A program made the translations under genes and the position numbers. Below the pieces are notes generated by a model that was not told the DNA's origin, made no database searches, and saw only the letters and a list, made by a program, of their open reading frames with translations. A stretch of DNA of 64,000 bases. Source: an uncultured Pseudomonadales bacterium (lineage in GTDB: Bacteria > Pseudomonadota > Gammaproteobacteria > Pseudomonadales > Azotimanducaceae). The stretch lies in the NCBI GenBank assembly GCA_958295875.1, contig OY282379.1:1984001-2048000 (forward strand), in the 5' to 3' direction. Within the stretch, counting starts at the first letter, position 1. Each line of letters begins with the position of its first letter. This document shows positions 1-9,620 of the stretch, one piece after another.

Positions 1-225
1 TTGCGTGCGCTCGAAGAACTCGTTCAGGTGTTCAAGTTCCTCACGCGAGAGGCAGTTGCCGATGACGGCGAACCCGTTTTCCGCGAAGAACTCATGGATG
101 CGCTCCACATCCGCGCCACCGAACTGCGGCGGGTTCTGTCGCGCCACACGACCAAACCCTTGATCCGCCAGCGCTGCGTCGCCCGTGCGGTTGTCCTGCT
201 GTTCGATTTGGATCTGCGTCTTCAC
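1..225 (-). CDS. Phytanoyl-CoA dioxygenase-like protein, N-terminal part (partial)
   Basis: The gene runs off the left edge; 75 codons are visible from a GTG at 225. Residues around VERIHEFFAENGFAVIGNCL and the following charged helix resemble the start of PhyH-type Fe(II)/2-oxoglutarate oxygenases, where a 'F..nGFvvi.n.l..eel' segment opens the fold. The catalytic HxD...H residues would lie outside the window, so the family call rests on this N-terminal similarity only. It follows the GST gene on the same strand, 31 bases downstream of its stop, so the two may be co-transcribed. Confidence 0.5.
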   Translation of the reverse strand, partial: MKTQIQIEQQDNRTGDAALADQGFGRVARQNPPQFGGADVERIHEFFAENGFAVIGNCLSREELEHLNEFFERTQ

Positions 226-256
226 TGGACGGGCCGCCCCAGAGCGGTGGATGTTG

Positions 257-988
257 CTAAAGGTCTGCCTTCAGCGCGGAGTTGGAAGCGATGCCGCCGC
301 CGTTGCGCTGGTACTGCTCGCGCCGCTCCTTGCTGAACTTGTCGATTTCGTCCTTCGGCACCCCAAACGCGATGCCGCGTTCCACGCCGGGTCGGGCGCG
401 AACGCGATGCACCCAATCCACCACCCGGGGCTTGGTGGTGATGTCCACCTTGGACCACTTGTAGGAGCGAATCCAACACCAGGTGGCGATGTCGGCCACG
501 GTGAACGCATCGCCGGCAAGAAAGGCGTGTTTGCCCAACTGATGGTCTAGCACGGACACCAGCCGCAGCGCCTCCTTGCCGAAGCGCTCCAGCGGATGCG
601 CCTTCTGCTCGTCCGTCGCGTCGTTGATGTAGCGCGTGTAGGAGAGCTTGTTGCCAAACACGGGGCCAACATTCGCTGCCTGCCAGTAAAGCCAAGGAAG
701 GACGTCCCATCGCTGCTCGCCAGCGGGAAGCAGGCTCGACGGGAACATCTCGCCGAGATATTGCAGGATGGCGCAGCTTTCGATGATGGCGCGCCCGTCA
801 TGCACGATGGCCGGAATCTTCTGATTCGGGTTGATGGCCATGAATGCCTCGGAGAACTGCTCGCCCCCCAAGCTCACCGCGTGAGTGCGCACATCCGGCA
901 ACGCCACGCCCGCCTCCCGCAGCTCCTCAATCATCACGGTGACTTTCCAGCCGTTCGGCGTGGCGGCGGTGTAAACGTCCAAGCTCAT
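257..988 (-). CDS. Glutathione S-transferase family protein (YfcG-like)
   Basis: 243 residues. An N-terminal thioredoxin-fold domain starts with LDVYTAATPNGWKVTVMIEE and contains NPNQKIPAI (the cis-Pro loop) and the glutathione-contacting ESCAILQYL. The C-terminal helical domain contains FLAGDAFTVADIATW, typical of GSTs. The Asn at the active-site position (TPNGWK) matches the YfcG/Ure2-like subgroup, which acts as a disulfide reductase. Start chosen at ATG 988 because GGGAGAG lies 7 bases upstream; an in-frame ATG at 1003 is an alternative. Probably cytoplasmic, acting in thiol/disulfide chemistry; the substrate cannot be predicted. Confidence 0.88.
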   Translation of the reverse strand: MSLDVYTAATPNGWKVTVMIEELREAGVALPDVRTHAVSLGGEQFSEAFMAINPNQKIPAIVHDGRAIIESCAILQYLGEMFPSSLLPAGEQRWDVLPWLYWQAANVGPVFGNKLSYTRYINDATDEQKAHPLERFGKEALRLVSVLDHQLGKHAFLAGDAFTVADIATWCWIRSYKWSKVDITTKPRVVDWVHRVRARPGVERGIAFGVPKDEIDKFSKERREQYQRNGGGIASNSALKADL

Positions 989-1228
989 CGCAACTCTCCC
1001 CATCCCCAAGGGCCTTTCGGATGATACCGCGCTGGTGGAGGGGGAGGGGGTTGGGCGGGTTGGTGCGGCAGGGTAGCGGCACGCTGACGGGGCTCCCGCT
1101 GTCGGCGAAGCTCCGCGTTTCCAGTCTTGCAACGCCTTCAACAGCGCATCCAGTGCGGTGCCCCTACAGGCGGCGCTCCGCCCGCAATGTGCCACCATAT
1201 CGCCATCGGATTGGGAGGTGTAAGGAGA

Positions 1229-1465
1229 GTGGCCAACGTCACTGTGCGCAACATCGATGACAGCGTCATCGACGCCCTCAAGGCTCAAGCGAAGGCAAAC
1301 CACCGGTCACTGGAGGACGAGATCAAGCACATTTTGGCTCAGCAGGTGCTCCGCCACACCCGCCTCGACAGGTTCCGCGAACGGACGGCGCACCTCGCCT
1401 CGCGCACCGCCGATGTCCCTCAAACCGACAGCGCCATCGTTCTCCGTGATGACCGTGACCGGTGA
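1229..1465 (+). CDS. FitA/VapB-type ribbon-helix-helix antitoxin
   Basis: 78 residues. The beginning, VANVTVRNIDDSVIDALKAQ, is the ribbon-helix-helix DNA-binding segment of FitA-like antitoxins. The end, DSAIVLRDDRDR, matches the tail that normally sits directly before a PIN-domain VapC toxin. Start GTG 1229 is preceded by GGAGG at 1214-1218. A four-base GTGA overlap leads into a toxin reading frame that is intact for only about 15 codons, so this antitoxin seems to have lost its partner. It would be expected to bind its own promoter in the 989-1228 gap. Confidence 0.8.
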   Translation: MANVTVRNIDDSVIDALKAQAKANHRSLEDEIKHILAQQVLRHTRLDRFRERTAHLASRTADVPQTDSAIVLRDDRDR

Positions 1466-1605
1466 AGTTGGTCATTGACGAGACTGTCGGTGCTATTGCT
1501 CTGCATCGCTTTGCGCCGCGTAGATGGTTAACCGGAGTTCGGCATGGTCGAACAACTCGATCTTCGGCTCTTTGCCGGAGAGCTCAATGCTGTTGTCTAG
1601 GATGA
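1462..1605 (+). pseudogene. Truncated VapC-like PIN toxin remnant
   Basis: Starts with GTG overlapping the antitoxin stop. The first residues, VKLVIDETVGAIALHRF, fit the first strand of a PIN domain, with the first catalytic Asp at residue 6. After that the frame reads as Arg/Cys-rich nonsense and stops at codon 48. A real VapC is about 130 residues. The loss of similarity coincides with the 3' end of the minus-strand defence gene at 1493. The most likely reading is that the island replaced the rest of the toxin gene. PIN assignment from so few residues is tentative. Confidence 0.5.
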
Positions 1606-2908
1606 TCGGCATGCCTTCGCCACGACGTTCCATCATGTGTTGCCGCGGCGTCGCCAACCAAGGTTCGTCCCGGATGGGACATCTCGCCAACACGCTGCAG
1701 ACGGCTTCGTTGCGCGCCGATTGCCGGTAGCGCAGGCGCTCTACGGTGAGCGAGTGGTGGAGGTCTCCTGGCGAATAGAGCTCCAATCTGTTCTCGAACA
1801 ACCGCAGCCGCACTTTAGAGCCGCGGACGGAGTAGTCCCGATGCGCAACCGCGTTGACGAGGGCCTCGAAGACGGCCGTCATGTCGTACTGCGGTTGGTC
1901 CGTGCGCCCCATGTGCTTGAATGCGGCGGTTTTCATGTTCCTGGCCACAAAACGACAGGCGTCCGCAACCTGGTGATCCAGTGGGCCGGTGGCATCTAGA
2001 GCGTCGAGTTGATAGGCAACGCTCGCGGACCGTGCGCGGATGTCGTTGCCTCGATACGCCACAGCCTGCACATAGGCGTTGGGCAACCAGCGGCGCGGAT
2101 CGTCGCTGGCCATGAGCACCCCAGCGACAGTTGGTTTGGCGATCCCTTCTGCGTCGAGTTCGACCATCCCCAGCTTGGCGAGAAAAGTGGCGCCATCTTC
2201 GTCGGATCGCGCCGTCATGAAGCGCGACCACAACGATGGATTCAAGTCTTCCATTCCCGCTCCCGGTACGGGTTGTTCGTCGAAGGGCACAACATGCTGC
2301 TGGCCTCGCTCGCCGAACAGTCGCGCCAAAAGCGCCGGAGAAATGGGCCGCTTGGAATCCGCCACGCGATGCAAGTAGCCGCCCGGGCTCCGATGCACGA
2401 ATAGGCTGCGCGGCACGTCAACTTTAACCACTGCGACTTCTTCGCCGGTGCTGGCTGGCAACAGAAGACGATCCACGACCACATGCTCCAAGGGAGGTTC
2501 GATGGAATCCATGCATACGTTGCGCACGAACTCGACCACCGCGTCGAGACGTTCCAGCGGCACGCCGACGACTTCGCGAGTCCTGTCTGCAACGCCCAGA
2601 ACGAACACGCCGCCGCGGCTGTTCGCAAGCGCGGCCAACCCATCGGCCAGCGAGTCGCGATGAGGCCCTTCGATCCTGTTGCCCTTGAACTTCACTTCCT
2701 TGAACTCAAGGAAGGAGCTCTTGCCTAAGCGAATCTTCTCCAACAGCTCCGCCTTGGCGTCAAACATCGCTTGGTGCTCCGCCAAGCCGCTAGCAAGGCT
2801 GCGAGAACGCCGGTGGCCACTTTCCATGATCTGGCAGTTTTCCTCGCGGATTTTCAGATCGTCTTCGGGTCGATCGAGCACCAAGGGCTTCGGAAACTGC
2901 TTCCGCAT
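1493..2908 (-). CDS. AlbA_2/Schlafen-type protein with divergent GHKL-like ATPase domain
   Basis: 471 residues. Residues about 65-170 form an AlbA_2 (Slfn) domain: SSFLEFKEVKFKGN, then LADGLAALANSRGGVFVLGV, a signature of putative nucleic-acid binding. Residues about 335-395 resemble the HATPase_c_4 region of so-called RecG-like transcriptional regulators (FEALVNAVAHRDYSV, then LELYSPGDL). Such proteins are common in defence islands; some act as regulators, others as nucleases. Start ATG 2908 is preferred over TTG 2926, though neither has a clear Shine-Dalgarno. A perfect inverted repeat lies 27-55 bases upstream, suggesting control of this gene separately from the methyltransferase operon. 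Confidence 0.75.
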   Translation of the reverse strand: MRKQFPKPLVLDRPEDDLKIREENCQIMESGHRRSRSLASGLAEHQAMFDAKAELLEKIRLGKSSFLEFKEVKFKGNRIEGPHRDSLADGLAALANSRGGVFVLGVADRTREVVGVPLERLDAVVEFVRNVCMDSIEPPLEHVVVDRLLLPASTGEEVAVVKVDVPRSLFVHRSPGGYLHRVADSKRPISPALLARLFGERGQQHVVPFDEQPVPGAGMEDLNPSLWSRFMTARSDEDGATFLAKLGMVELDAEGIAKPTVAGVLMASDDPRRWLPNAYVQAVAYRGNDIRARSASVAYQLDALDATGPLDHQVADACRFVARNMKTAAFKHMGRTDQPQYDMTAVFEALVNAVAHRDYSVRGSKVRLRLFENRLELYSPGDLHHSLTVERLRYRQSARNEAVCSVLARCPIRDEPWLATPRQHMMERRGEGMPIILDNSIELSGKEPKIELFDHAELRLTIYAAQSDAEQ

Positions 2909-2934
2909 TGCGTCTCGCTGCGACAACTACGCGC

Positions 2935-2963
2935 CTAACATCACGGCGCGAGTCACATGTTAG
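2935..2963. promoter_or_regulatory. Inverted repeat, candidate operator
   Basis: CTAACAT (2935-2941) and ATGTTAG (2957-2963) form a perfect 7-base inverted repeat with a 15-base spacer. It sits in the 72-base gap between the methyltransferase stop and the AlbA_2 gene start. The spacing and position fit a dimeric repressor site; the AlbA_2 protein itself is one candidate ligand. No sequence after it suggests a terminator. Confidence 0.4.
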
Positions 2964-2980
2964 CGTGGCCATCTCTTCCC

Positions 2981-4159
2981 TCAAGCCGCTGGGAGGTAGT
3001 CGCCGAGCGAGGAGATTTCTCGGAAGCCATTGGCGGCACTCCATTTCATTCCCCTTTGGCCGGGCAGCAGAAAATCTAACTCCTTGGCTCTGCGCCCTCC
3101 GTGACCGTGATAGACAGACTCCCCCTCAGACGGCGCAGTCGTCGCGCGTACGAAAATCGCTTCGTCAGGCCAAACATCTTTGAGGACTTCCACGCACATC
3201 TCGGCCGTGTGCCGGCGAAGATCGCTCCGCACCAAGATTGCGGCGCTGTCAACCAGATGGCGTTGCGACTCCCGGAAGACATCTCGAAGGAGCTCTCGAT
3301 AGCCATCTCGATTCTCGAATCTTGCCGACCTCTGCCAGTTCTTCCGCAATCCGTAGCCTAACATCCACAACCTAATCCAATGATCATTCCAGTAGTCGGT
3401 TACGCCACAGTAGGGCGGGGAAGTCAGCAATAGTGCCACCTTCAAACAATTCTGCTGCCGCAGCACCGTCGCCGCTTCGCCGAGGACAGCACTGCCGTGA
3501 GTCTGCCGGGGTATGCCGTACCTATACCGACGTTTGATCTTCTCCTCAAGCGCAGCTTTGGGATCGACGTTCGGCGGACGCAGAAGCCCCTTTCTTGTCC
3601 ACCACTTGACGGCGTAAGCCGGCGAGCAGGCGATGGTGGGCCAAAGGGCGTTGGAGAGGCCTGTTCCCCGCTTGTCCTGCATGTGAAGCATGATGAAGGC
3701 CATCAGCGTCCGATCCACGGCGCATCCCCGCCAATCCAGTTCGCGTCTAGCTGCCCGTAGGAACGAGCGGACCTCCGGAGCCCAAGCCATCGTCTCGAAG
3801 CGTGAGCGGCTTCGCCTGTCCTGCGGTCGGGATGCGTCTGAGACTTCTCGAAGCCTACCAAGGACGCGCTCCGCGGGCGCCGGTCCAAGCTTCGCCGCCG
3901 TATAGACCCAACCGACGGGGTTGATGTCGACCCCAATGCTGGGACGTTGCATCGTCGTTGCCATGAATGGTGCGTTACCCCGGCCGCAGAACGGATCCAA
4001 CACGCGCTCTCCGGGATCGGTTAAGCCTTGCACCGCGTCGTAGGCGAAAGATGGAGGGAACATCGCGTAATAGCGCCCGAGACCGTACCACCGATGTTCG
4101 GGCGTGTTGCCGCGCCAAGGCAGGGCCCTGGAACCAGCGACGTCTCTGCACCGTTTCAT
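2981..4159 (-). CDS. DNA N4/N6 methyltransferase of the HerA-NurA operon
   Basis: 392 residues. Motif I (VLDPFCGRGN, residues 53-62, S-adenosylmethionine binding) precedes motif IV (TSPPY, residues 246-250, catalytic), an order opposite to beta-class enzymes. SPPY is frequent in N4-cytosine methylases, but base specificity cannot be decided here. The ATG overlaps the NurA stop in an ATGA, so translation is coupled and the enzyme should work with NurA and HerA, either marking self DNA or modifying the substrate the nuclease senses. No separate target-recognition subunit is seen. Confidence 0.85.
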   Translation of the reverse strand: MKRCRDVAGSRALPWRGNTPEHRWYGLGRYYAMFPPSFAYDAVQGLTDPGERVLDPFCGRGNAPFMATTMQRPSIGVDINPVGWVYTAAKLGPAPAERVLGRLREVSDASRPQDRRSRSRFETMAWAPEVRSFLRAARRELDWRGCAVDRTLMAFIMLHMQDKRGTGLSNALWPTIACSPAYAVKWWTRKGLLRPPNVDPKAALEEKIKRRYRYGIPRQTHGSAVLGEAATVLRQQNCLKVALLLTSPPYCGVTDYWNDHWIRLWMLGYGLRKNWQRSARFENRDGYRELLRDVFRESQRHLVDSAAILVRSDLRRHTAEMCVEVLKDVWPDEAIFVRATTAPSEGESVYHGHGGRRAKELDFLLPGQRGMKWSAANGFREISSLGDYLPAA

Positions 4160-5466
4160 GGCGCAAGGCTCTGGATTAGGTCCGTGCCGCGCTTCAGCGG
4201 TATGGCCGCATGGCTGTGAACACGACGAAGCGCGAGGAACTGGTTGGTACTTACGCCTAGCGGCCCGGCGGTTGCTAGAGCGTCTCCCAGCACACGTGGC
4301 CTTGGCGCGTTGGTGAGCGGCGGATCGGCCTCCGGCTGAGCTAGATTAAGAACTAGGCGCTCGCCGTTTGCCGTCTTCAGGACTACGGGCCTACCGTAGT
4401 AGGTGAGCTCTCCCCAAGGCTTCGACTGCTGGGAGCCACGCGCTACGATGTTTGCTCGGATGTAGTCGTTGTCCGGCAGCCAGAAGTGGTTTTTCGACAG
4501 TCTCTTGTTCGGCTCTGGCGCCCGGTCCAGCTCTTCCGCATGGTCGACGAATGGCCCGCTCTTCACGCCCGACATTATCAGTAAAGTTGCCCCGGACTGC
4601 TGTCTCTCGACAAGCTCTTGCACACGACGTATCTCCTTTCGGACCGCACGGGCTAGCACTGCGATAGTCCCGAAAGCAGCGAGCGGGCCATCCATAACGA
4701 ACGCCGTGTTAGCGATGGCCCGAAGCCCCCTGTCTGACGCCGCAAGATATCTGAGCGTGTTCACCAGTGCCAGCATCTCCAGAGCATCACGCACACGGTG
4801 ATGACACTCGGTTGGCGAGTCATTCTCCAGAAACTGCTCTTGGATACGCAGTCCATCGCTGACAAAAACGCGCTCGCCACAGGTCTTGCATTCGCCGCTA
4901 GACCTTGGTGTGGGAATCCCCACGTTCTGCTCATTGCATTCATCATTCGGGCACCGAACCGTACGGCCGTCGCCGAGCAAGTGGTACAGCGTGTCGGCGA
5001 AGCTCTCACCGCCGAGTTGCGCCTGTTCAAGCTCGTTGTTGAGGATCTCCCTAAACCAAGTGCGCGGCATCGTGCCGTCCTTTTTGGCCGCATTCTGTCC
5101 AGGCAGCATCATGCCTAGACTGACGCTCTTTTCCGTTCTCCTGAGTTCTCCCGGATCTGCCGCGCCACTCGCAGGCAGGTGCGGCAGCGATTCTAGTTTC
5201 CTCACATCGATGACCACCATCCCAAGCGATACAAGCCCAGCTTCCGTACAGGGGAGCGCACCGGGGATAGGCGCATAGATGTTAGACCCGTCGATAGCAA
5301 CGACGTAGCTTCGATACTTGCCGGCTGGGCAGGGCTCAAACCTCGGAAGTGGTAAGGGCTGCCCTGTGTGGCGTTCTGCCATCTCCGTGCGGAAGCTCTC
5401 GACGACTCCACTCTCCGTGATGGCGCGAATCGCATCCAATCCGGCTCTCTCATCCTGATAGGGCAT
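4156..5466 (-). CDS. nurA: NurA-family nuclease with zinc-ribbon insertion
   Basis: 436 residues. The N-terminal metal-binding motif is YVVAIDGSN (Asp59). A second acidic motif, FVMDGPLA (Asp259), is also NurA-like. Between them lie Cys172, Cys177, Cys193 and Cys196 (CPNDEC...CKTC), a zinc-ribbon pattern not typical of classical archaeal NurA. Family members are Mn-dependent 5'-3' exo/endonucleases that work with the HerA hexamer. Start ATG 5466 was chosen because GGGAA lies 8 bases upstream and the gap to the HerA stop is then 16 bases; an in-frame upstream start would overlap herA. The 3' end overlaps the methyltransferase start. Confidence 0.85.
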   Translation of the reverse strand: MPYQDERAGLDAIRAITESGVVESFRTEMAERHTGQPLPLPRFEPCPAGKYRSYVVAIDGSNIYAPIPGALPCTEAGLVSLGMVVIDVRKLESLPHLPASGAADPGELRRTEKSVSLGMMLPGQNAAKKDGTMPRTWFREILNNELEQAQLGGESFADTLYHLLGDGRTVRCPNDECNEQNVGIPTPRSSGECKTCGERVFVSDGLRIQEQFLENDSPTECHHRVRDALEMLALVNTLRYLAASDRGLRAIANTAFVMDGPLAAFGTIAVLARAVRKEIRRVQELVERQQSGATLLIMSGVKSGPFVDHAEELDRAPEPNKRLSKNHFWLPDNDYIRANIVARGSQQSKPWGELTYYGRPVVLKTANGERLVLNLAQPEADPPLTNAPRPRVLGDALATAGPLGVSTNQFLALRRVHSHAAIPLKRGTDLIQSLAP

Positions 5467-5482
5467 GTCGCTTTCCCGCCTG

Positions 5483-7612
5483 TTACGGTGCGTCTTCGGC
5501 CACTCTCTCAGTTGAAGTCTCGTCAATGCGGAACTTATCTAGTTGAACAGGCACCGTGTACGCCTGCGAAAGCGTACGAATACGAACAAACCCTTGTTCG
5601 CTAACTTTACCGATTTGCTCTAGGAAGTCCGCGAAGTCCATGTAGCCCGCAATGACCCTGCGTTCGCTCTCCGAGTTCAAGTAGGATAGTATCCAGTTAT
5701 CCGTCTCACTAAGGATTTCCGGCATCACCGAACTAGGCGCTTGCGTGGCCAGCACCATGCCGATATTCAATTTGCTGCCTTCCTTTGCAGAACGCGCCCA
5801 TACCGTCTGCAAGTTATTCGCCGCGTTCGCCCGAGGCAGCAGGTTGTGGGCCTCCTCAAGGTAGACGACGATATGCCCTTCGGTGGGGTCGCGCTCGGTC
5901 GTTTGAGCAAGCTGCCTCCTAAAGAGGTCCTGCTGAGCCAGGAATATCCTCCACATGACTCGTTCAGCAGCCGTCCGGTTTTGCTCCGGGTCGCCCGCCG
6001 ATTGATCTATGATGACGAGCTTCCCCTTGCGGAGGTCTGCTACTACTCGCTCCGCAAAATCTACTTCGACATCTGGGCTGTGCTGCTGCTGAGCGGTTTG
6101 GAACATCCGCGGGCCGTTCTGGGACGCAAAAATGCGGATGACGGATCGCAGTCTCGGATCAGCCCACCCTTCGCCACTCGACGATTTAGTGATGTAAGCA
6201 TTCTCGAACGCACCAAATCCGCTCTTTTTGTCCTCGACAAACTTGCTCAAGGCACGAAACACGATCTCAAGTCTTGTCCATTCGATCCGCCCTTGGTCCT
6301 GTTTCGCATGCGTCAAGATCGTTGCAGCCTCATTGTAGTCCGTCTGGTTGTCGCTGCCTGCGTTCTGAGCAGGGGACATAGCATCGATTATGTCCTTGCC
6401 GAACAACCCTTGAACGGACGGTTGCCATGATGGCAGAGTCAAACCGGCAGCCGCGAGTGCCGTTTGATAGGCGAGTATCGCGCGCCGGTATCTGGTCTGT
6501 ATGCCGCGGCTGCCTTCGGCGTCGAGTGGAACTGCTAGGTCGGCGTCCCTAAACGACGTGGTGTAAATCGTGGTCAAGTGTGCCATGATGCCTTTGACTA
6601 TCTCCCGACCAGCGAGTAGCTGATCCATCGCCTGCTCAACGTCCACAGTGCGCCAAGTTGGGGGAAACGGTTCCCCGAAGAAGTTGATCTTCATGATCTT
6701 CCGATCAGGATCCCAAGGCACGGGCAGGAGTCCGTAGGTCTCCACTTCCCCATCTCTAGCGACACCGATGACCTCATGGATGCAATGTAGAGCTTTACCA
6801 TCTTGGGGATTGTCTTGGGCGTACTCTCCGCTGAGGTCGAAAATTAGCTGGCCGACGCGGCACTTGGACAGATCTTGAGTACGGAGCCGATATATTGCCT
6901 CAGCGACAATTTTCATGCCGTTGGACTTGCCGGAGCGCGACATGCCCAAGTAGACAGTCCGGCGTTTCAACACGTCCGTTGGGTCCAAGCTGAAGTCGGC
7001 TTTCGTTGCCGATTCGCGTTCGGCCGCTGCGAATCGCGTAGTGCCGATCTTTGTTAGCGGCTGGTCGATGGGAACATCGTTCGAACGGTGACGGTGATTG
7101 ACGATTAAAGACAGCGTGTGGGAGTCTGGCTTCCAAACCATTAACTCATGCACGGCATAGTAGTTCTCGATGTCCTCGGCGTATCGGTAGCCATCGTGCT
7201 GTTGTATGAAGGTACCAAGCACGCTGCACTCGACGGCGTGGAGCGAGAGCTGATCTCGCATCCATTCGTCAAGCTTGCCATCCCAAGCTTCTTCGTTCCC
7301 CGAAGACTCGATCGCGCGTTGGCGGGTCTCGTCGTTAGACGTGGCGTTCGGCAAGCGAGCTTCTCTTTGAATCCTGAGCAGGAGAAAGGACTCATCGCCG
7401 GTCTGCTTGGCGGCCAAGAGGAACATGCCCTTGGCTAAACCACCAGCGCGTTCACGGTCGAAATCGTACACGGCCACAATCGCTTGCGTATACGACAGCG
7501 TGTACACCGCGCCGACCCTCATCGAACGATCGCGGAAAGCTGGCGACTCCTCGGTCGCTCCCGCTGCCTCGGCTAGCGCCGGAAGTATCGGTTCACTCAT
7601 CGGTTCTCGCAT
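5483..7612 (-). CDS. herA: HerA-like hexameric DNA translocase/ATPase
   Basis: 709 residues. Walker A is GMSRSGKS (residues 223-230), Walker B HIVVYLEEAHNLLP (about residues 580-595), followed by VLATQAPSSV and ILSYLNSESERR, typical of the HerA/FtsK superfamily. The first 200 residues form the usual beta-barrel-like HAS region. HerA pumps DNA and loads or activates NurA. First gene of the herA-nurA-methyltransferase operon. ATG 7612 and ATG 7600 are both possible starts, neither with a strong Shine-Dalgarno. Base composition is clearly more AT-rich than the ribosomal region, consistent with acquisition. Confidence 0.9.
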   Translation of the reverse strand: MREPMSEPILPALAEAAGATEESPAFRDRSMRVGAVYTLSYTQAIVAVYDFDRERAGGLAKGMFLLAAKQTGDESFLLLRIQREARLPNATSNDETRQRAIESSGNEEAWDGKLDEWMRDQLSLHAVECSVLGTFIQQHDGYRYAEDIENYYAVHELMVWKPDSHTLSLIVNHRHRSNDVPIDQPLTKIGTTRFAAAERESATKADFSLDPTDVLKRRTVYLGMSRSGKSNGMKIVAEAIYRLRTQDLSKCRVGQLIFDLSGEYAQDNPQDGKALHCIHEVIGVARDGEVETYGLLPVPWDPDRKIMKINFFGEPFPPTWRTVDVEQAMDQLLAGREIVKGIMAHLTTIYTTSFRDADLAVPLDAEGSRGIQTRYRRAILAYQTALAAAGLTLPSWQPSVQGLFGKDIIDAMSPAQNAGSDNQTDYNEAATILTHAKQDQGRIEWTRLEIVFRALSKFVEDKKSGFGAFENAYITKSSSGEGWADPRLRSVIRIFASQNGPRMFQTAQQQHSPDVEVDFAERVVADLRKGKLVIIDQSAGDPEQNRTAAERVMWRIFLAQQDLFRRQLAQTTERDPTEGHIVVYLEEAHNLLPRANAANNLQTVWARSAKEGSKLNIGMVLATQAPSSVMPEILSETDNWILSYLNSESERRVIAGYMDFADFLEQIGKVSEQGFVRIRTLSQAYTVPVQLDKFRIDETSTERVAEDAP

Positions 7613-7752
7613 TCTGTTCGCTAGCGCAGTGTCTCACACTGGCCCGCCGATGTATCGATAGGGCTGCTGACGGTGGACGGCGGGGTCTCTATTGCGGCAC
7701 TCGCAGCTTGCACGGCAAGTGTCGCGGGCGTCTCTCAAAGTGAGTTTCGAGT

Positions 7753-7773
7753 TCTCGCGGCGCTGTCGCGAGA
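7753..7773 (-). terminator. Hairpin after the DUF4276 gene
   Basis: TCTCGCG (7753-7759) pairs perfectly with CGCGAGA (7767-7773) around a 7-base loop, 6 bases beyond the DUF4276 stop. There is no U-tract, so it is either a weak terminator or a 3' stabilising hairpin separating the AAA_21/DUF4276 pair from herA. The rest of the 7613-7779 gap shows no convincing promoter. Confidence 0.35.
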
Positions 7774-7779
7774 GCGTGT

Positions 7780-8391
7780 TCATGGTGCCACCTTCTCCAT
7801 CTCGCTCGAGATGGTCTCGACAAGACGCCGGGCGTGAGAGGACGCGCTAATGACCCTTGCTGCGTCGATCCGTCCCAGCAGGGCAAACGAGTCTCGGCCT
7901 TTGTCGTACCGGCCCTTGCGAGATTGCCGAGTGGACTCTCGGAGCGCCTTGTCGAGATCGGCCTTTGCAACTTGCTCAACCTCCCGTTGCGGCGCCGGCA
8001 GTGCGTTCGCTCTGAAGCCGTTGCCGAAGTAGCGGGCAAGGCAGTCCCGGTCGGCTAGGAACCAAGACTCCATCACTTGCACCATCAGGTGAGCGTTCCG
8101 GTCCGTGGCGCCGTCCGGCTGCTCCCATCCGTCGCGTTGCTTCAGATGGGCCCAAGACGTGGCGTCTACTGGCCCCTCGCCGTCTACCAGCAAGCCCACA
8201 AAGTCGTCTGCCTGCTGGGCAATAGCGGTGCAAAATCTCTCGTAGGCTTGGCGCCTGCTGCCGCAGGCGACGACGGCCGGCATGCGGTCCGTGAGGCCGG
8301 CGTTGCGAAAGAACGCACTGAAGCCTTGGCGACACGCATGCCGTAGCTTTCGGCCGTTTCCGCCGCCTTCGACGTATACCTTGGCTTTCAA
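7780..8391 (-). CDS. DUF4276 protein (TOPRIM-like partner of AAA_21 ATPase)
   Basis: 203 residues from a TTG start. KVYVEGGGN near the N-terminus supplies the TOPRIM glutamate; LLVDGEGPVD supplies the acidic D-x-D-like cluster. DUF4276 proteins resemble the nuclease half of split OLD/PARIS-type pairs. The TTG at 8391 lies 8 bases after GGAGGG and overlaps the upstream ATPase stop as TTGA, so the two proteins are translationally coupled. Function inferred: effector triggered by the ATPase. The D-x-E/D arrangement is not fully canonical, so catalytic activity is uncertain. Confidence 0.75.
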   Translation of the reverse strand: MKAKVYVEGGGNGRKLRHACRQGFSAFFRNAGLTDRMPAVVACGSRRQAYERFCTAIAQQADDFVGLLVDGEGPVDATSWAHLKQRDGWEQPDGATDRNAHLMVQVMESWFLADRDCLARYFGNGFRANALPAPQREVEQVAKADLDKALRESTRQSRKGRYDKGRDSFALLGRIDAARVISASSHARRLVETISSEMEKVAP

Positions 8392-9584
8392 TGGCGGTTC
8401 CCTCCGATTTCGCCGGAAGACCACAATTCGCCAAGACGGTACTTGTCCAGCCAGTGTTTCAGATCTGGGGTGCTGAGGCGCCTAAGTTGCGTCTGGCCCT
8501 TCTCCTTTTCGCAAACCACCACGCACTCCGGATGGTCCGTCAAAGCATCGACCAGAACCTCTGAATGCGTCGTGACGACAAGCTGGCAGCGTTCAGACGT
8601 TTCCAACAGGAGTTCGACCAAGCCAGGGAGAATGTCGGGATGAAGGCCAATCTCTGGCTCTTCGATGCATACCAACGGGGGCGGGTCCGGATCGCAGAGG
8701 ATGGCCAGCAGCGACAGGTAGCGAATCGTGCCGTCGGAGAGCCGGGTCGCCGGTACTGTCACGCGCCCGCCCTGCTCTTGGACGAAAACCTGAACCGTGT
8801 TGAATTCGATGTTCACATGGAAATCGGAGACGTCTTGATAGAGGCCGCGCAATGCTTCGACCAACCGCTCACGGACCTTGTAGTCTCTGGATAGGCGATT
8901 CAGAACCAAACCCAGATTGGCATTGTCTTCGTTGAGATTGGCGTTCGGCAGGTCCGTCTTCTGGAGCGAGCGGACGACGTTGTTGCGGCCAAGAGTCCAC
9001 TCTCGATAGAGCTTGATGCGTTCTAGCTCTTTTGCTAGGCAGGTGAGTTCCGGGTAGCGCTCCGAATCTTTCACTTGGGCCAGAACGGATTTGGAGATGT
9101 CTAGCGGATACTTGACCTGCTTGAATGCCCCCCAGAGCCTGCCCGCTATCGATTCGTTGTCCGCGGCCCGAAGGAGCGCATGGCGGGCGGTTCCACTCAT
9201 CTCGAAATAGGGCGTTCGCTTACCATATTGATCCGGAGCCACCGGTTCCGCCCGCTCGTCGATCACGCCGAAGCTCTGATAACGTTCGGCAAACTCCATG
9301 CCGTAGCGCAGCGCCTCCTGGCCGGCGGGATGTACGACGGCCTCCAAGCGGGCGGAGTCTGCCTTCGGATCGCCTTGCCAAATCCAGTCCGCGACGCCGC
9401 GCCCCGTGCGGATCGGGGTCGCCAAGTCTGTTGGCGCCGCCTGAAGCAGGCCAATCGCCTCAATGAAGTTCGATTTGCCAGACCCGTTGGCGCCGATCAA
9501 TACGTTGAGCGGCCGGAGCGCAAACTCTTCCGCCTGCGGCCCGAAGGAAAGCAGGTTTTTCAGTCGGATGCGCTCAAGCAACAT
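8388..9584 (-). CDS. AAA_21/RloA-like SMC-type ATPase
   Basis: 398 residues. Walker A GANGSGKS (residues 31-38) follows an RIRLKNLLSFG start typical of RecF/OLD-like ATPases; an ABC-signature-like LSDGTIRYLSLLAIL, a Walker B ending in CIEEPEIGLHP and TTHSEVLVDAL follow. The middle region is helical and may form a short coiled coil. Start ATG 9584 has AGGA 8 bases upstream. Together with the overlapping DUF4276 gene it forms a two-gene ATPase/TOPRIM cassette of the kind found in OLD, PARIS and related phage-defence systems; the trigger is unknown. Confidence 0.85.
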   Translation of the reverse strand: MLLERIRLKNLLSFGPQAEEFALRPLNVLIGANGSGKSNFIEAIGLLQAAPTDLATPIRTGRGVADWIWQGDPKADSARLEAVVHPAGQEALRYGMEFAERYQSFGVIDERAEPVAPDQYGKRTPYFEMSGTARHALLRAADNESIAGRLWGAFKQVKYPLDISKSVLAQVKDSERYPELTCLAKELERIKLYREWTLGRNNVVRSLQKTDLPNANLNEDNANLGLVLNRLSRDYKVRERLVEALRGLYQDVSDFHVNIEFNTVQVFVQEQGGRVTVPATRLSDGTIRYLSLLAILCDPDPPPLVCIEEPEIGLHPDILPGLVELLLETSERCQLVVTTHSEVLVDALTDHPECVVVCEKEKGQTQLRRLSTPDLKHWLDKYRLGELWSSGEIGGNRH

Positions 9585-9620
9585 GTCTCGTTCCTGCGCT
9601 CTACTGCTCCACACTCCTCC

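Follow-up and report, generated by a model that had tools for sequence, protein, structure and literature searches.

What does a DNA methyltransferase do directly behind a HerA-type ring ATPase and a NurA-type nuclease? The question is raised by a three-gene module within 64,000 nucleotides of contig OY282379.1 (assembly GCA_958295875.1, positions 1,984,001 to 2,048,000), from an uncultured Pseudomonadales bacterium of the Azotimanducaceae, and this whole stretch is referred to here as the window. The answer that is favoured, with moderate confidence, is a module like the TdpAB pair that works as a restriction system, in which the mark of self is methylation instead of phosphorothioate. It draws on the kinship of the pair with TdpA and TdpB and on the exchange of the neighbouring modification gene among relatives. 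Loci and genomes compared with the window are cited by L and G numbers, respectively.

Similarity to TdpA and TdpB

TdpC makes phosphorothioate DNA and TdpAB is a phosphorothioate-sensing machine. The kinship of the window pair with TdpA and TdpB was missed in the initial annotation, as was a published Thermus DNA-donation operon that is considered below. The best sequence match of the window HerA in the PDB is TdpA (8wet), at E 5.6e-13 with the single sequence and 1.1e-20 with profile A3, for which the next solved HerAs follow at about 3e-10. With the HerA antiphage families of NCBIfam the protein reaches 54.1 bits where 800 are required and 33.3 where 850 are, far short of both cut-offs, and the PADLOC HerA models align for the most part with its C-terminal ATPase portion.

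PF09376 recognises the NurA partner at 22.1 bits (E 1.2e-4), a borderline score that lies above the cut-off of 21, and no PADLOC or NCBIfam model matches it at E 0.01. The nearest solved relative of its fold is TdpB, with the repair-type NurAs scoring lower. Four cysteines between the acidic motifs had been singled out initially as unusual for the family, and the idea had been made to depend on their conservation. They are indeed conserved: a homologue search found 308 proteins, and among the 120 listed of these Cys172, 177, 193 and 196 are kept in 120, 120, 119 and 120, respectively. Of 26 related NurAs, with identities as low as about 19%, 25 have such a pattern in the same place, and L044 retains three of the four residues. 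The pattern is missing from all four TdpB-type proteins and from all 23 other NurAs, which were taken from the Deinococcota with the Pfam model. Residues 171–200 are modelled confidently, with a predicted local distance difference test (pLDDT) score of 93–95, and the cysteines are predicted to bind zinc; the proteins that carry them are called ribbon NurAs here.

In a HerA tree of 35 rows, flagged for long branches and uneven composition, the 25 HerAs of ribbon-NurA loci, including that of the window, form one clade (support 100/99) and four TdpAs form a separate one (100/100). A support of 90/81, over long branches, separates the window HerA together with TdpA from the outgroup. As sisters, the TdpA and ribbon clades have a support of just 62/3, and because of the long branches and uneven composition that relation is not claimed.

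With the TdpABC system of Thermus the module has in common a HerA nearest to TdpA, a NurA fold nearest to TdpB, an N-terminal MPY motif and an adjacent DNA-modification gene. It differs in having a methyltransferase instead of TdpC and in the four-cysteine motif, which is found in 0/4 of the TdpB proteins. Homologues of TdpAB adjoin TdpC, which is PAPS-reductase-like, in Thermus and in one Chloroflexota genome, and TdpC is present in 7/7 TdpB loci with known neighbours. No TdpC is adjacent in the window, where the module is bordered by its methyltransferase and by the candidate defence genes called HEC-01.

A modification gene that changes among relatives

The initial identification of the three genes stands (Pfam E 4.8e-5 for HerA, 1.2e-4 for NurA and 8.7e-11 for the methyltransferase), as does their described arrangement, with 16 bases between the HerA stop (5483) and the NurA ATG (5466) and an overlap of 4 bases between the NurA stop and the methyltransferase ATG (ATGA, 4156–4159). 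The HerA start is most likely at 7600, not 7612, as judged from homologues (P0241, 705 residues). A search with a close-relative query gave eight loci whose available sequence covers all three genes (L002–L007, L009 and L010). All eight show the order HerA-NurA-methyltransferase, though L006 and L009 have a broken HerA, and seven share the 4-base overlap, an arrangement that is far beyond chance. Across 10 window-type loci the distances of the three proteins correlate at 0.957–0.966, and the three genes share descent.

The methyltransferase matches a PADLOC type II methyltransferase model at E 2.1e-19 and has a class I methyltransferase fold, for which Dam is the top Foldseek match (E 1.3e-6). 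Its S-adenosylmethionine and catalytic motifs are intact (DPFCGRG core and TSPPY, 31/31) and run in the order I then IV, the reverse of the Pfam profile. The predicted specificity is for N4-cytosine or N6-adenine.

A total of 29 ribbon-NurA loci was compared, formed of the window, L002–L007, L009 and L010, five plasmids, two Vibrio phages, three Deinococcota, seven Chloroflexota and three further loci; L008 was left out as its contig ends inside NurA. The ribbon-NurA module is found in several bacterial phyla, on one archaeal plasmid and in the two phages. A methyltransferase immediately adjoins HerA or NurA in 25 of the 29. It is of the window SPPY type in 13, of other SPPY types in L011 and L014, of the D12 adenine type in L044, L047, L093 (by a local profile only), L095, L101, L102 and the two phages, and of SPPF types in L092 and L094. 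Its position may be downstream or upstream of HerA-NurA, divergent or convergent. When the phage pair and a trio of cyanobacterial loci are each counted once, adjacency stands at 24/26. The sample is uneven, as the search that yielded L002–L010 used a close-relative query and favours the window type; broader searches gave adjacency in 7/8 ribbon loci of the Chloroflexota, counting L092 and L094, and in 4/4 in the class of G457. On the HerA tree the loci with a window-type partner form one clade (11 rows, 99/99), and the D12 partners need three changes, at least two of them on starred branches. The neighbouring modification gene is swapped between relatives, which carry the phosphorothioation-type TdpC, SPPY methylases or D12 methylases.

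The close spacing of the genes had been taken initially to imply a stoichiometric complex. This is not supported: both the position and the family of the methyltransferase (SPPY to D12) vary among relatives, which fits a DNA-marking enzyme better than an obligate subunit. In the 23 Deinococcota loci of the comparison NurAs, no methyltransferase is detected with the same hidden Markov models up to 5 kb on each side, and a catalytic-motif search there found nothing resembling a methylase; PADLOC matched one type IIG restriction-methyltransferase among 124 neighbour genes of the comparison loci. In two Deinococcota genomes (L104:170-4200 and L105:5385-9851) DruA, of Druantia, is followed by a Pfam-type NurA and HerA.

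Other genes accompany several of the relatives. In the two integrase-bearing Vibrio phages (L091:1309-5750 and L012:1309-5751), HerA-NurA and a convergent D12 methylase lie between integrase and excisionase, with HerA a single open reading frame (ORF) in L091 and split in L012. A longer variant (L095:3191-10964 and L096:4027-12818) has genes for a UvrD-type helicase and a PD-(D/E)XK nuclease after HerA-NurA, with a D12 methyltransferase upstream in L095 and an N6_N4 methyltransferase downstream in L096. In L092 (2928-8516) a PvuII-type restriction-modification system, composed of a helix-turn-helix domain fused to PvuII endonuclease and a methylase matching M.PvuII at E 9.6e-130, directly adjoins HerA-NurA, and type III restriction-modification genes adjoin L010. 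In a SAR202 bin the gene immediately downstream of the module encodes a TIR-TPR protein (L002:11564-14119, + strand), and a second, distant HerA-like ORF with 25% identity lies about 4 kb from the module in a Truepera bin (L003:524-2407, + strand). At L046 (1439-4419, - strand) a HerA-like ATPase is followed by a window-family methylase; profiles find no NurA there, and the nuclease partner is possibly another one.

The insert and its surroundings

The module lies on a 4.9 kb insert (Table 1) that is absent from the same-genus genome G399, where 9 other bases take its place. Window positions 1–2887 and 7760–9105 align to the corresponding stretch of G399 (L187) at 88–95% and abut there (blastn); a 138-base patch at 9106–9243 is also unaligned. 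The genes that flank the island are 3.8 kb apart in G399 as against 8.6 kb here, and the G+C content of the insert is 58.3%, compared with 61.9 and 64.5% in the flanks. A search of 8 same-genus genomes, not all of them complete, did not find the window NurA, and the distribution is patchy, with 1/398 genomes of its phylum.

Upstream of the module lie HEC-01A and HEC-01B, a pair that is kept in G399 without the HerA-NurA-methyltransferase insert. The SLFN_AlbA_2/HATPase_c_4 gene on the other side is likewise kept in G399 and has no match near the module in L002–L010. Because G399 retains both and lacks the insert, the AlbA_2 and HEC-01 genes occur without the module.

Table 1. Features of the module and its neighbourhood, in window coordinates
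Feature	Position	Strand	Basis
FitA-like ribbon-helix-helix antitoxin	1205-1465	+	Pfam
SLFN_AlbA_2 + HATPase_c_4 (RecG C-terminal-like) protein, directly after the methyltransferase	1493-2926	-	Pfam
Insert with the three genes, HerA leader and first codons of the next ORF as called (AlbA_2)	2888-7759		blastn against same-genus L187
Predicted DNA amino-methyltransferase, N6_N4_Mtase family, 392 residues	2981-4159	-	Pfam E 8.7e-11
Methyltransferase motif IV TSPPY, residues 246-250	3410-3424	-	invariant in 31/31 aligned relatives
Methyltransferase motif I DPFCGRG, residues 55-61	3977-3997	-	D55, P56, F57, G59, R60 invariant in 31/31
NurA-type nuclease, TdpB-like fold, 436 residues, N-terminal MPY motif as in TdpB	4156-5466	-	Pfam NurA PF09376
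Predicted zinc ribbon Cys172-x4-Cys-x15-Cys-x2-Cys196	4879-4953	-	four-Cys conservation, between D59 and D259
HerA-type ring ATPase, TdpA-like, 705-709 residues	5483-7612	-	Pfam DUF87/HerA E 4.8e-5
HerA Walker B / catalytic EEAH	5846-5857	-	E582-H585 invariant in 23/23 aligned HerAs
HerA Walker A GMSRSGKS	6923-6946	-	G, M, R, GKS invariant in 23/23 aligned HerAs
DUF4276 + AAA_21 pair, candidate defence system HEC-01	7780-9614	-	PADLOC E 1e-76 and 2.4e-157

Restriction, DNA donation or abortive defence

As a restriction system, the module would work in the following way. The methyltransferase would mark the host's own DNA with methyl groups, whilst the HerA ring would pump DNA into the NurA nuclease. 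Marked sites would halt translocation or cutting, and methylation would in this manner protect, with unmethylated invading DNA being degraded by HerA-NurA, probably from free ends. A mark that blocks translocation or cutting is favoured over a fixed subunit because the methylase family and gene position vary whereas the HerA-NurA core is constant. In Thermococcus kodakarensis, HerA-NurA cuts both strands of double-stranded DNA exonucleolytically with any end structure, and attack from free ends fits with this (PMC12977600).

Since relatives keep the pump and the nuclease, mostly with different DNA-modifying enzymes, a restriction system with an exchangeable self-mark is likely. A more tentative extension, possible rather than probable, is that the HerA-NurA motor is agnostic to the modification and accepts phosphorothioate, SPPY-type (N4-methylcytosine or N6-methyladenine) or D12-type (N6-methyladenine) self-marks, with the ribbon permitting use with base methylation and the modifier replaceable like a cartridge. 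The SPPY and D12 methylases come from the pool of families that also supplies type II restriction-modification methyltransferases, but their partner is an ATP-driven HerA-NurA pair rather than a small site-specific endonuclease. The Dnd systems are a precedent in that their core has taken on other modifications (PMC10853773), although that core is DndDE and not HerA-NurA.

Damage to the loci and the genes around them bear on protection and defence. HerA or NurA is damaged in six loci, by stops in L006, L008 and L009, a frameshift in L098, the insertion of an insertion sequence in L014 and the split HerA of L012, and the methyltransferase is intact in all five of these in which it is visible. 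An intact methyltransferase beside a broken HerA or NurA matches a protective methylase, in small number. The defence link drawn initially keeps the candidate defence genes next door (HEC-01); the neighbour enrichment, from a rough test, is suggestive and not strong. That test, in PADLOC at E 1e-20, set 127 neighbouring genes of 23 loci (22 ribbon and one Tdp) against 124 comparison genes and gave 84 matched families versus 15.

A number of points weigh against restriction. In the PADLOC comparison no family matched more than three genes, many models matched one gene and the helicase matches are probably the UvrD genes of L095 and L096, so that the defence enrichment is weak. The bias towards intact methyltransferases rests on 5 cases, in which errors of metagenome-assembled genomes are possible. 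The TdpB profile gives no match to the window NurA, and because it misses the protein by sequence, the link to TdpB rests on fold and on HerA. The methyltransferase of L092 belongs to the PvuII system and that of L094 has an Mrr-type nuclease gene close by, for which reason neither may serve HerA-NurA; the locus-by-locus inspection of flanks for rival endonucleases covers these two and not each of the other 23. In L096 the methyltransferase is three genes away, and a second methylase lies close to the module in L006, L010 and L098. A ribbon NurA without an adjacent methyltransferase, by hidden Markov models and annotations, is found in three cyanobacterial plasmid loci that are near-copies of each other; in one of them, L090, a methyltransferase-domain gene lies 7 kb away. 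Since the ribbon persists in such loci, its presence is not linked to that of an adjacent methylase. Finally, the 23 comparison loci all come from one phylum through the Pfam NurA model, and the label 'housekeeping' was dropped for them because the NurA of L104 and L105 lies between DruA and HerA.

The strongest reason for caution is the ICETh1 operon of Thermus thermophilus, which is the closest described gene combination found and makes DNA donation a serious rival. The operon encodes Tth111II, NurA, the HerA-like pump TdtA and an N4/N6 methylase (PMC5365140), and the module could be related to it, exporting DNA in transjugation rather than destroying it, which is judged unlikely. In ICETh1, NurA, the HerA-family ATPase and a PF01555 methylase stand in tight succession with a 4-base overlap (PMC5365140). 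Loss of the NurA-like gene lowered transjugation by 4–5 orders of magnitude, and the methylase mattered little to donation (PMC5365140, PMC7767461), a further point against restriction here. By description, the basis of this comparison in place of sequence, ICETh1 has a type IIG enzyme, an integrase and a published role in DNA donation, whereas the window insert contains just three genes, with no integrase and no type IIG enzyme. The gene order also differs, being NurA-TdtA-methyltransferase there and HerA-NurA-methyltransferase here. TdtA is reported to share 31% identity with the repair-type HerA found in its own strain (PMC5365140), whereas among solved HerAs it is TdpA that comes closest to the window protein. 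The combination had been called little described at first; this is true of the PADLOC and NCBIfam defence models used, which do not cover it. Outside ICETh1, literature searches, mostly without subscription papers, found no published description of the combination and none of a TdpAB-like family partnered by methylation. Two comparative-genomics papers, on HerA capture and BREX, make no mention of NurA in the text available (PMC10853773, main text, and PMC12839542).

HerA-NurA could also shred DNA when a sensor sets it off, in the manner of HerA-DUF4297 or HerA-SIR2, in which case the methylase would be just a passenger or would have a part in epigenetic regulation. Established defence systems include HerA-nuclease pairs that have no modification gene (PMC11291478), and the cyanobacterial trio without an adjacent methyltransferase would suit such an abortive nuclease, as would the NurA-HerA pairs that adjoin DruA without a methylase. 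However, the methylase is adjacent in 25/29 ribbon loci, from unrelated families and repeatedly replaced, and TdpC is carried by 7/7 TdpB loci. HerA-DUF4297 and HerA-SIR2, which share the HerA ring with a partner effector, have other partner folds and no modification gene. The abortive explanation is considered improbable. Descent from a housekeeping HerA-NurA resection machine, with the methylase a chance neighbour, is very improbable: the Pfam families and the NurA and HerA domains are in common with the repair-type pairs of archaea and Deinococcus, but the module is patchy (1/398) and missing as one insert from a same-genus genome, its NurA is set apart from repair NurA by fold, the 23 Deinococcota Pfam-model NurAs have neither the four cysteines (23/23) nor a linked methylase (23/23), and a case has been made that even the T. 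kodakarensis pair is no resection enzyme (PMC12977600).

If the restriction explanation is true, the module would be an added defence system whose NurA escapes the PADLOC and NCBIfam models used. TdpAB and methylation-based restriction would then belong to a single family of nucleases driven by ATP, whose members are set apart by the mark that each respects. The discrimination of self from foreign DNA by a sequence-blind DNA pump would become testable, as natural versions with three marks could be compared and cross-swapped.

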